64,000 bases of DNA from Robiginitalea sediminis (GTDB lineage: Bacteria > Bacteroidota > Bacteroidia > Flavobacteriales > Flavobacteriaceae), in assembly GCF_002198115.1 (NCBI RefSeq), contig NZ_NGNR01000001.1, positions 372,001 through 436,000 on the forward strand, read 5' to 3'. The notes under the pieces were generated by a model. It was not told the origin of the DNA and did not search any database. It was given only the letters and a program-made list of their open reading frames with translations. The position numbers were made by a program, and so were the translations under genes. Positions 49,267 through 54,796 of this stretch are shown in pieces. How positions within the stretch are numbered: the first letter of the stretch is position 1; each line of letters begins with the position of its first letter.

Positions 49267-49339
49267 TAAAACTTTGGGTTAAATACACGAAATACCGATA
49301 AAATGTAGCTTTCTATACCTCTAAATATAGTGGCAATAG

Positions 49340-51618: not shown

Positions 51619-53520
51619 ATGAGCGACGCCATCAAACACGAATGCGGGATTTCCCTCATTCGTCTCCTCAAACCCCTCGAATACTATCAGGAAAAATACG
51701 GTACGGCTTTTTATGGGGTAAACAAGATGTACCTCATGATGGAGAAGCAGCACAACCGGGGGCAGGATGGCGCCGGTTTTGCCAGTATCAAGCTGGACAT
51801 GAAGCCCGGCGAGCGGTATATGAGCCGGGTCCGCTCCAACCTCTCCCAGCCCATACAGGACATCTTCGAGCGCATCAACGACCGGATAAACGAATCCCTG
51901 CGGGAACACCCGGATAAAGTGGATGATGTGGCCTGGCAAAAACGGAACATCCCCTATGTTGGGGAATTGCTCCTGGGCCATGTGCGCTATGGCACTTTCG
52001 GTAAGAACAGTATTGAAAGTGTCCACCCCTTCCTTCGGCAGAACAACTGGATGCACCGCAACCTCATTGTGGCCGGCAATTTCAACATGACCAATGTTAC
52101 CGAACTCTTCGAGAACCTGGTTCACCTGGGCCAGCACCCGAAGGAATTGGCCGACACCATCACGGTAATGGAAAAAATCGGGCACTTCCTGGACGATGCC
52201 GTTGCCAAACTCTACAAACAAATCAAAAAGGAAGGCTTTAATAAAATGGAAGCCTCCCCCCTTATTGCGCAACGGCTTAACCTGGCCAAAATCCTGAGGA
52301 AATCCTCCAAAAACTGGGATGGAGGCTACGCCATGGCCGGCCTGCTAGGTCATGGGGACGCCTTTGTCCTGCGCGATCCTTCGGGGATCCGCCCTGCATA
52401 TTATTACAAAGATGATGAAGTAGTGGTTGTGGCTTCCGAACGCCCGGCCATTCAGACGGTGTTCAATACCTCCTATGAGGAGGTGCATGAACTCCCGCCG
52501 GGGCATGCCATCATTATAAAGAAGGACGGGCAGGAAGAAATCCGGGAAATCCGCAAACCCGAAGCGCGGAAGGCCTGTTCTTTTGAACGCATTTATTTCT
52601 CCAGGGGCAACGACAAGGAAATCTACGAAGAGCGGAAAATGCTCGGAAAGCTGCTGTTTCCTCAAATCCTGGAGGCCATAGACCACGACCTGCGCAATAC
52701 GGTGTTTTCCTATATCCCCAATACAGCCGAAACCTCTTTCCTCGGGATGTTGCGGGAAGCCCAGAATTACCTTAACAATAAGAAGGAGGAACAAATTCTG
52801 GCCCTGGGGTCCAATATCAGCCGGGAAGCCCTGAACGACATCCTGGACGTACGCCCCCGGATCGAGAAAGTCGCTATTAAAGATGCCAAACTCCGGACCT
52901 TTATCACCCAGGACAGCAGCCGGGACGATCTGGTGGCCCACGTCTACGACATTTCTTACGGCTCGGTGAACCCCGGGGATTACCTGGCTATTATAGACGA
53001 CAGTATTGTTCGGGGAACTACTCTGAAAAAGAGTATCCTTCGCATTCTGGACCGGTTGAATCCCAAAAAGATCATCGTGATTTCCTCGGCTCCCCAAATC
53101 CGGTACCCGGACTGCTACGGGATCGACATGGCCAAGCTGGAGGACTTTATCGCATTCCGGGCGGCCCTGGAACTCCATAAAGACCACGGCACCGAACACA
53201 TTATTGAGGAGATTTACCAGAAATGCAAGGCCTCCCTGGCTTCAGGAAAGCTGGAAAACACCGAGAACCATGTAAAGGCATTCTACCGCCCCTTTACAGC
53301 CGCACAGATCTCCGAAAAGATCGCGGTCCTGCTGAGCCCTCCGGATATCAAGGCGGAGGTCCAAATCATTTACCAGACCATCAGCAACCTTCACCTGGCC
53401 TGCCCGAAAAACCTCGGGGACTGGTACTTCACCGGAGACTATCCCACCCCGGGGGGCAACCGGGTCGTAAACCGGTCGTTCGTCAACTTTTATGAGGGAA
53501 AGAACGAACGCGCCTATTAG
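51619..53520 (+). CDS. PurF-like amidophosphoribosyltransferase, long Bacteroidota type
   Basis: 633 aa, much longer than canonical PurF (~470-500). After an 8-residue propeptide-like start (MSDAIKHE) comes Cys9, the Ntn glutaminase nucleophile, in CGISLIRLL. HVRYGTFGK, GNFNMTN and RDPSGIRPAYY match the glutaminase site. The PRPP loop IIDDSIVRGTT is intact and YGIDMAKLEDFIAF follows, but the segment usually reading PDSG is replaced by PNTAETSFLGM. It may be a true first-step purine enzyme or a divergent paralogue; a second standard purF elsewhere in the genome would favour the latter. Confidence 0.82.
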   Translation: MSDAIKHECGISLIRLLKPLEYYQEKYGTAFYGVNKMYLMMEKQHNRGQDGAGFASIKLDMKPGERYMSRVRSNLSQPIQDIFERINDRINESLREHPDKVDDVAWQKRNIPYVGELLLGHVRYGTFGKNSIESVHPFLRQNNWMHRNLIVAGNFNMTNVTELFENLVHLGQHPKELADTITVMEKIGHFLDDAVAKLYKQIKKEGFNKMEASPLIAQRLNLAKILRKSSKNWDGGYAMAGLLGHGDAFVLRDPSGIRPAYYYKDDEVVVVASERPAIQTVFNTSYEEVHELPPGHAIIIKKDGQEEIREIRKPEARKACSFERIYFSRGNDKEIYEERKMLGKLLFPQILEAIDHDLRNTVFSYIPNTAETSFLGMLREAQNYLNNKKEEQILALGSNISREALNDILDVRPRIEKVAIKDAKLRTFITQDSSRDDLVAHVYDISYGSVNPGDYLAIIDDSIVRGTTLKKSILRILDRLNPKKIIVISSAPQIRYPDCYGIDMAKLEDFIAFRAALELHKDHGTEHIIEEIYQKCKASLASGKLENTENHVKAFYRPFTAAQISEKIAVLLSPPDIKAEVQIIYQTISNLHLACPKNLGDWYFTGDYPTPGGNRVVNRSFVNFYEGKNERAY

Positions 53521-53611: not shown

Positions 53612-53619
53612 TACTTTAG
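53612..53619 (+). promoter_or_regulatory. -7-like box (TACTTTAG) of small-RNA copy 1
   Basis: One base from TAnnTTTG, beginning exactly 13 nt before the conserved RNA block, as in the other two copies. Confidence 0.6.
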
Positions 53620-53623
53620 GATT

Positions 53624-53695
53624 GCCATAGCATAAGTAGGTTAAGTTCATGGTAAGATTTGGGGCAAAAAAGGTGGAGTTTCTCCACCTTTTTTA
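53624..53695 (+). ncRNA. Predicted small RNA, copy 1 of 3
   Basis: Predicted ~72-nt transcript. The 40-nt block at 53625-53664 begins CCATAGCATAAGTAGG, continues TTAAGTTCATGG and ends TAAGATTTGGGG. It is identical in copy 2 and differs by one base in copy 3. The block contains three TAAG motifs and can form a weak CCAT/ATGG hairpin with a 20-nt loop holding two of them. A 13-bp terminator follows directly. Start and end are inferred from the -7 box and the terminator. No tRNA, CRISPR or coding explanation fits. A trans-acting regulatory RNA is the best reading. Confidence 0.75.
53666..53695 (+). terminator. Terminator of small-RNA copy 1
   Basis: A-run plus GGTGGAG, loop TTT, CTCCACC plus T-run: 13 perfect pairs ending in six T. 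The stem sequence is unlike those of copies 2 and 3. Confidence 0.85.
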
Positions 53696-53836
53696 TTTGT
53701 CCTAATCCCTGAGAAAGTTCCCACAACCCCTTCATCCTCTTCTCTCTTTGCGTAGGAACTATACGGCGCCAAGGGCAGTTCAACGGTTTTCTCAGGCGTT
53801 TGTCCAAAATCGAAAGCGCAACCCGGAACTCCGGCC

Positions 53837-53844
53837 TATTTTTG
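53837..53844 (+). promoter_or_regulatory. -7 box (TATTTTTG) of small-RNA copy 2
   Basis: Exact TAnnTTTG beginning 13 nt before the conserved block. Confidence 0.65.
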
Positions 53845-53848
53845 GATC

Positions 53849-53922
53849 ACCATAGCATAAGTAGGTTAAGTTCATGGTAAGATTTGGGGAAAAGGCAAGG
53901 GTAACACCTTGCCTTTTTATTT
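53849..53922 (+). ncRNA. Predicted small RNA, copy 2 of 3
   Basis: Predicted ~74-nt transcript. The conserved 40-nt block (53850-53889) is identical to copy 1. The five bases between the -7 box and the block differ (GATCA against GATTG), so identity starts sharply at the block. A terminator with a new stem (AAGGCAAGG / CCTTGCCTT) follows at once. The 155 nt between the copy 1 terminator and this block show no similarity to other gaps, arguing against simple recent tandem duplication. Confidence 0.75.
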
Positions 53923-53925
53923 TTT
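53890..53925 (+). terminator. Terminator of small-RNA copy 2
   Basis: AAAAGGCAAGG, loop GTAACA, CCTTGCCTTTT: 11 perfect pairs, then TATTTTTT. Confidence 0.85.
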
Positions 53926-54015
53926 CCGGGAGGTTTAACGCCTTGATATCCTGCCTGTATGGGCCCAGAAAGCGACACTTGATCCTTCCCGCCTCCTAAA
54001 AAATCGTCAAAATCT

Positions 54016-54046
54016 TTTGTTATTTCTCTTAATACCAGTAATTTAG
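54016..54046 (+). promoter_or_regulatory. Promoter of small-RNA copy 3 (TTTG-N19-TAATTTAG)
   Basis: TTTG at 54016-54019, 19-nt spacer, and the -7-like TAATTTAG at 54039-54046, 13 nt before the conserved block. This is the only copy with a clear -33 element. Confidence 0.65.
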
Positions 54047-54050
54047 TCTT

Positions 54051-54125
54051 GCCATAGCATAAGTAGGTTAAGTTTATGGTAAGATTTGGGATGAAAAGGG
54101 CAGAGTCTTCTCTGCCCTTTTCTAT
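54051..54125 (+). ncRNA. Predicted small RNA, copy 3 of 3
   Basis: Predicted ~75-nt transcript. The block at 54052-54090 is the same as in copies 1 and 2 over 39 nt except T for C at 54075. That change turns an A-C mismatch next to the CCAT/ATGG stem into an A-U pair, which suits a real hairpin. It also makes TTAAGTTTA, which is perfectly complementary over 9 nt to the ompA leader. The terminator stem (AAAAGGGCAGAG / CTCTGCCCTTTT) is again different. It is convergent with sodA. Confidence 0.75.
54094..54125 (+). terminator. Terminator of small-RNA copy 3
   Basis: 12 perfect pairs with loop TCTT, followed by CTATT after the T-run inside the stem; the weakest U-tract of the three. Confidence 0.75.
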
Positions 54126-54137
54126 TGGATAACATCC

Positions 54138-54187: not shown

Positions 54188-54796
<609 letters not shown>

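Follow-up and report, generated by a model that had tools for sequence, protein, structure and literature searches.

Three tandem copies of a 40-nt repeat lie between a purF-like gene and a convergent sodA gene in a 64,000-nt stretch of Robiginitalea sediminis DNA (the window), of which the sequence alone was analysed. Each copy carries its own promoter-like box and terminator hairpin and reads as a small gene with a predicted product of about 75 nt, which agrees with the 72–75 nt and with the gene order proposed in the first-pass annotation. The features between and including the two flanking genes are as follows.

51619..53520, plus strand: purF-like gene, 633 aa, weak Pfam GATase_7 match; conserved neighbour
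53612..53619, plus strand: −7-like promoter box of copy 1, TACTTTAG, from reading of the sequence
53624..53698, plus strand: predicted sRNA copy 1, about 75 nt with predicted ends; match to covariance model R1
53625–53664, plus strand: core copy 1, 40-nt repeat
53666..53694, plus strand: terminator stem of copy 1, 13 pairs, from the consensus scan
53837..53844, plus strand: −7 box of copy 2, TATTTTTG, an exact TAnnTTTG, from reading of the sequence
53849..53922, plus strand: predicted sRNA copy 2, predicted ends; R1 match
53850–53889, plus strand: core copy 2, 40-nt repeat
53889..53918, plus strand: terminator stem of copy 2, 12 pairs, from the consensus scan
54039–54046, plus strand: box of copy 3, TAATTTAG, from reading of the sequence
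54051..54127, plus strand: predicted sRNA copy 3, T variant, last copy, predicted ends; R1 match
54052–54090, plus strand: core copy 3 (the 39-nt block of the first-pass annotation), T variant, last copy
54093..54122, plus strand: terminator stem of copy 3, 13-bp perfect inverted repeat, supported by folding
54188..54796, minus strand: sodA (Fe/Mn superoxide dismutase, by Pfam), convergent; conserved neighbour

The three cores occupy the coordinates first assigned to them. They had been described as differing by a single base, and this C/T difference is real, but copy 3 also has GGGA where copies 1 and 2 have GGGG, a difference that falls just outside the 39-nt block. The surroundings have diverged as described, the spacers differing outside a 72-nt register, and with up to three mismatches allowed the core occurs in its own genome at this locus only, in three copies. 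The 633-aa purF-like protein matches the Pfam glutamine amidotransferase domains weakly (GATase_7, 28.3 bits).

In all three window copies a TAnnTT(T/A)G box starts 19 nt before the core CAT, so that the −7-like box claimed for each copy is present; the exact TAnnTTTG form is found in copy 2 only, and the boxes of copies 1 and 3 end in TTAG. A search with the sigma-70 consensus, from which Bacteroidota promoters differ in type, found no promoter. Hairpins of 12–13 pairs follow all three copies, again as claimed, although the consensus scan called two of them and missed the terminator of copy 3, whose T tract is interrupted (TTTTCTATT); the scan returned three terminator-like sites in total where 1.0 was expected, and one of the three is a minus-strand site. 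The 81-nt units fold better than their shuffles (z = −3.29, −4.25 and −6.21), whereas the core alone folds no better (z = −0.10 and −0.44), and each of the three copies is predicted to form a weak 5′ hairpin. This anatomy makes it probable that each unit is transcribed as a separate small RNA.

A search of the family's genomes, suggested as a check at the outset, was made with covariance model R1, built from 19 cores, with matches counted at E ≤ 0.01. Matches were obtained in 321 of the 397 sampled family genomes, representing 201 of 237 genera, and in 286 of the 330 high-quality ones, with up to seven copies per genome. Many R1-positive genomes carry a variant with a 1-nt deletion, GGTA-GATTTGGGG, and tandem copies are found also in g147, a heavily sampled genus. 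The remaining 76 of the 397 genomes gave no R1 match under the stricter filters used, with which some copies were possibly missed. As we read the list, the matches are weak in 10 of the 321 genomes (best E between 1e-4 and 0.01); among these L237 (24.4 bits) is a diverged copy adjoining a purF-like gene, L235 reads as a diverged copy without the usual neighbours, and L233, L234 and L236 may be chance matches. Beyond the family, with family membership taken from a kinship-ordered listing, R1 matched none of 206 genomes of other families in the same order (the 32 matching genomes among the 246 of the order sample all belong to the same family), and the phylum sample gave a weak match in one of 179 genomes of other families (26 bits, E 7.3e-4). 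Pattern searches allowing up to three mismatches agree: a 36-nt pattern was found in 17 of 60 genomes including the present one, and a 32-nt pattern in 145 of the 397 family genomes, six of the entries among the 32-nt matches listed having 1–3 mismatches. Chance is excluded as the source of these matches because the reversed-pattern control gave none in all 60 and all 397 genomes.

Among 474 copies, partly preselected for identity, we counted 33 core variants, and in the 403 full-length copies, likewise partly preselected, 36 of the 41 core positions are 99–100% constant and 32 round to 100%. These counts are inflated since they include 119 loci obtained by exact 32-nt match, and fairer figures are the 145 of 397 genomes at up to three mismatches and the R1 search itself. 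The core must be under strong selection, being almost the same in about 200 sampled genera where flanks, spacers and terminator stems vary. Of 471 copies 466 have a terminator, built on 217 different stems, compared with 12 of 942 shuffles, and the retention of terminators despite differing stems identifies the plus strand as the RNA strand. The predicted 5′ hairpin fits the core variants (96.5% of cells paired), and its covariation support is poor, 52 of 500 shuffles reaching the same level. A small open reading frame was considered and is unlikely because TAA and TAG stops lie inside the core, and the sole ATG-led frame of the core continues into the variable terminator and is shifted in the variant with the 1-nt deletion.

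The genomic setting is also constant. Both flanks are visible in 85 of the 119 listed loci, and in 85 of 85 the array lies between the purF-like gene and sodA, on the same strand as the former and opposite to the latter. Where one flank is visible it is the purF-like gene in 18 listed loci and sodA in 13, and neither is visible in three (L139, L143 and L178). The first-pass annotation had suggested that a mobile repeat scattered at random sites would speak against an RNA family; 116 of the 119 listed loci show the purF-like gene and/or sodA adjoining. Single copies were counted in 44 of these loci, two in 16, three in 33, four in 18, five in six and six in two, numbers affected by loci that may be cut off and by the exclusion of matches with more than three substitutions, and hence of the deletion variants. 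Copies away from the purF-like gene and sodA were observed at L139, L143, L178, L216, L227 and L053; the copy in L178 adjoins what we take, from its sequence, to be a priA-like gene. Some are solo copies that retain box and terminator beside unrelated genes (for example L216, L227 and L139), and because such copies adjoin unrelated genes, the RNA probably acts in trans. No match was found in viral contigs with the exact pattern or in phages and plasmids by blastn.

The promoter box is widespread too: 366 of 464 copies have a TAnnTT[TA]G box, where shuffles would give 8.1, and in 279 it starts exactly 19 nt before the core CAT. Three positional, paralogue-specific promoter types (first, middle and last) recur across genera, and promoters and operators were compared in the 366 copies with a recognised box. 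Pairs of TTTCATCG-type half-sites spaced 20–21 bp apart precede 79% of 134 first or single copies (4.6% in shuffles) and 44% of 149 middle copies (5.1% in shuffles), which points to a shared operator, while the last-type promoter, CTTTGTTATTTCtCaCAATACCAGTAATTTAG, is conserved in 83 aligned copies, 82 of which have the core in its T variant. The promoter types overlap to some extent, since 23% of the 83 last-type promoters also show an operator-like pair (6.4% in shuffles). The corresponding elements in the window are the following.

49271..49307, minus strand: similar candidate operator upstream of acpP-fabF (both genes by Pfam), 30.7 bits
53550..53586, plus strand: copy 1 candidate operator, a direct repeat of two TGCATTT-type half-sites at 20-bp spacing, 46.2 bits
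53774..53810, plus strand: weaker candidate direct-repeat operator of copy 2, 20.1 bits
54015..54046, plus strand: copy 3 promoter, belonging to the last-copy type conserved in 83 aligned copies, TTTTGTTATTTCTC..AATACCAGTAATTTAG

Within 856 kb of the organism's own genome no site scores higher than the copy 1 operator, though its score of 46.2 bits is circular because the matrix was trained on such operators. The second-best site there (L251:88–124, 37.1 bits) starts 148 nt upstream of a 163-aa open reading frame that has no Pfam match, and an intergenic operator-like site without a called gene scores 27.3 bits. Another lies upstream of one further gene, in its own genome (16.4 bits) and in a second genus, G010 (24.6 bits); from its sequence this gene is presumably a 5-formyltetrahydrofolate cyclo-ligase. 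A 6S RNA near the 5-formyltetrahydrofolate ligase gene was considered and dropped, Rfam having given only tRNAs in the ten stretches scanned. In 400-kb stretches of G010 and G539 the sRNA operators are the top sites, and in that of G072 the sRNA operator (24.7 bits) comes second to a site elsewhere (25.7 bits). The acpP-fabF genes carry, besides their operator-like site, a TATATTTTTG stretch, which suggests a regulon common to the sRNA copies and these genes; in G010 a site of 18.8 bits precedes a fabF-like gene. Direct repeats two helical turns apart recall, we presume, the sites of LytTR-type response regulators. In relatives (for example L008, L013 and L006) an inverted repeat, TCGATGAAATGCAC..GTGCATTTCATCGA, overlaps the copy 1 operator downstream of the purF-like stop codon; it is possibly a third half-site or the terminator of the purF-like gene.

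The 41-nt RNA core matches no catalogued Rfam family. An Rfam comparison, which had been proposed as a check, returned nothing at gathering threshold for the predicted sRNAs, and the sub-threshold alignments listed mainly cover the terminator hairpin, apart from a likeness to FopS described below; 6S-flavo (RF01685) and Flavo-1 (RF01705), listed among Bacteroidetes RNA motifs in the part of the source drawn on here (PMC2864571), were absent among matches at E ≤ 10. A description of this RNA was not found in the open-access literature, the scope of the search, outside which lay subscription journals and supplements. A study of Flavobacterium psychrophilum gives 85 new RNAs, four of them named as conserved in other species, and the portion of its text consulted attributes to Rfp18 a third stem-loop and protease targets (PMC9723704); these conserved flavobacterial sRNAs, known from RNA-seq and compared here by description only, might include the present family.

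Closest within the phylum is BTncRNA_FopS (RF04319)/GibS of Bacteroides thetaiotaomicron, which the passages of its report used here describe as a multicopy RNA (14 members), about 70 nt long and carrying a conserved motif of 41 nt as well as a terminator (PMC11697453). Phylum, multiplicity, length, 41-nt motif and terminator are thus alike, and the FopS consensus and the core have UUCAUGGUA..AGAUUU in common. The Rfam model of FopS (length 71), however, scores the sRNA at 18.9 bits, where gathering stands at 56. In the local alignment 15 of 17 columns match the consensus and 64 of 10,000 dinucleotide shuffles score as high, a figure uncorrected for how many families were compared; the likeness is lower in other variants (389 and 4954 of 10,000) and is lost in the g147 variant. 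According to the same passages the 5′ part of FopS is single-stranded and its partner RbpB is an RRM-1 protein (PMC11697453), whereas here a weak 5′ hairpin is predicted and RRM_1 was found in none of the 19 family genomes. Complementarity to susC start regions, a property of FopS, was likewise not apparent in 88 SusC leaders. FopS remains the best lead in the Bacteroidota, and the resemblance is only suggestive.

A second comparison is with the LhrC, Qrr and Cia-dependent sRNAs (csRNAs), near-identical copies under a common regulator, an arrangement that may hold here as well. The multicopy LhrC sRNAs are regulated by LisRK. As in these families, there are at least two near-identical copies, each with its own predicted promoter and terminator; a putative common operator, present before 79% of the first or single copies and 44% of those in the middle, argues for a common regulator, and the last copy departs from this pattern. 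Unlike them, the present RNA is near-invariant over its whole 41 nt and has no Rfam gathering match. These families pair with mRNAs, and here bulk enrichment for pairing is not clear, an outcome compatible with a small target set. Qrr and Cia-dependent RNAs are named as multicopy sRNAs in the FopS report, in the part drawn on (PMC11697453).

Several searches for targets bear on this point. The mean duplex energy at 382 gene starts was −21.71, below that of 19 of 20 shuffled sRNAs, but this is not specific to starts because the same level is reached inside coding sequences (−22.17 in 296 windows). Matches of 7-mers numbered 124 in 382 start regions as against 78 in 646 coding regions, and 80 with the reversed sRNA; we rejected this excess as it came largely from k-mers containing the start codon. 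Testing 7-mer complementarity upstream of 1642 genes of four genomes (its own, G010, G072 and G539) against composition-matched shuffles showed no consistent excess: in that order, the 3′ segment gave 31, 18, 11 and 20 matches versus 33.6, 12.6, 12.7 and 10.6 in shuffles, and the loop 30, 30, 39 and 19 versus 35.2, 24.6, 27.3 and 21.8. A residual excess of AAGATTTGGGG complements was also lost in the composition-matched test in its own genome, G539 alone lying above expectation (20 versus 10.6). The 14-nt loop complement, with one mismatch allowed, has two matches outside sRNA genes in nine Robiginitalea genomes, one each in two of them. FopS-like targeting of SusC was considered as well; leaders appear complementary by eye, yet in 88 SusC leaders from five genomes (L378–L407 and L408–L467, two of 30 loci below the family cut-off having been dropped) the best sRNA-antisense 6-mer, ACTTAA, was found 19 times versus 10.4 and ranked 57, and the enriched motif is TTAACTAAC-like and not antisense to the sRNA. 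Such TTAACTAAC-like motifs lie within 50 nt of the SusC start (AACTAA in 39 of 88 leaders, 12.3 expected). As to partner proteins, Hfq was found in none of 31 genomes (control rings 5 of 14), and RRM_1 in none of 19 family genomes and in two of the 31 overall, both of other families, the Bacteroides control being positive.

The first-pass annotation had proposed a trans-acting sRNA family. Of this, there is strong support for tandem sRNA genes under independent control, while action in trans is deduced from the solo copies, and the bulk tests of base pairing gave no clear signal. We consider it very probable that these are independent, dosage-amplified, trans-acting sRNAs. Each unit would be an sRNA gene with its own primary-sigma-type promoter and intrinsic terminator, producing a functional RNA of about 41 nt in which a weak 5′ hairpin exposes GUAGG/GGUUAAG and is followed by AAGAUUUGGGG. 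One DNA-binding regulator, possibly of the response-regulator type, would act on the direct repeats two helical turns apart to turn on the first and middle copies jointly, and would also serve acpP-fabF; the last copy would supply a separately controlled level, and copy number (up to seven) would tune dosage. In the final step the RNA would most likely use GGUUAAGUUCAUGGU and/or AAGAUUUGGGG to pair with a small number of mRNAs at their start regions, in the manner of GibS/FopS in Bacteroides. Base pairing with a few mRNAs is, by a modest preference, the likelier mode of action, and it is the least supported part of the explanation.

The alternatives differ in how much of the evidence they accommodate. 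That the array is a mobile or structural DNA repeat (a MITE or a recombination site) without RNA function would fit tandem copies with diverged spacers and the occasional dispersed copy, but we reject it as extremely improbable given the fixed purF-like/sodA setting across genera and the absence from viral contigs, phages and plasmids; moreover, terminators are maintained while their sequences change and the box keeps a fixed distance from the core. The strict synteny at 85 of 85 listed loci would be expected of a cis element, an attenuator or a leader or trailer of the purF-like gene or sodA, and this too is improbable: each copy is equipped with a promoter box and terminator of its own, and in the window no open reading frame follows directly, sodA lies on the opposite strand with its own terminator-like hairpin, and copies stand beside unrelated genes at the six loci named above.

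More weight attaches to an RNA that binds a protein or the ribosome, as a decoy or in the manner of 6S/CsrB, whose whole 41-nt core would be a protein recognition element acting without mRNA pairing and whose copy number would determine how many titrating sites are present, a reading that we regard as possible and less probable than pairing. With 32 of 41 positions at about 100% and 33 variants among 474 copies, the core is more evenly constant than short seeds need, though the copies behind that constancy were partly preselected for identity; the unclear signal of the bulk pairing tests and the presence of up to seven copies per genome agree with such a role, whereas the weakness of the hairpin and the failure to find Hfq in 31 genomes or RRM_1 in the 19 family genomes argue against it. 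Tentatively, the RNA could be a housekeeping-like molecule of most Flavobacteriaceae whose entire 41-nt 5′ part is recognised by a protein or ribosomal partner. If so, copy number and promoter type would set two separate expression levels, and the RNA would operate in bacteria where neither Hfq nor RRM chaperones are detectable.

Post-transcriptional control in the Bacteroidota has been little studied, and neither Hfq nor RRM_1 was found in the family genomes examined. With its fixed genomic address, a single deletable array and a defined candidate operator, the predicted sRNA family described here opens the working of sRNAs in this phylum to direct tests in laboratory species.
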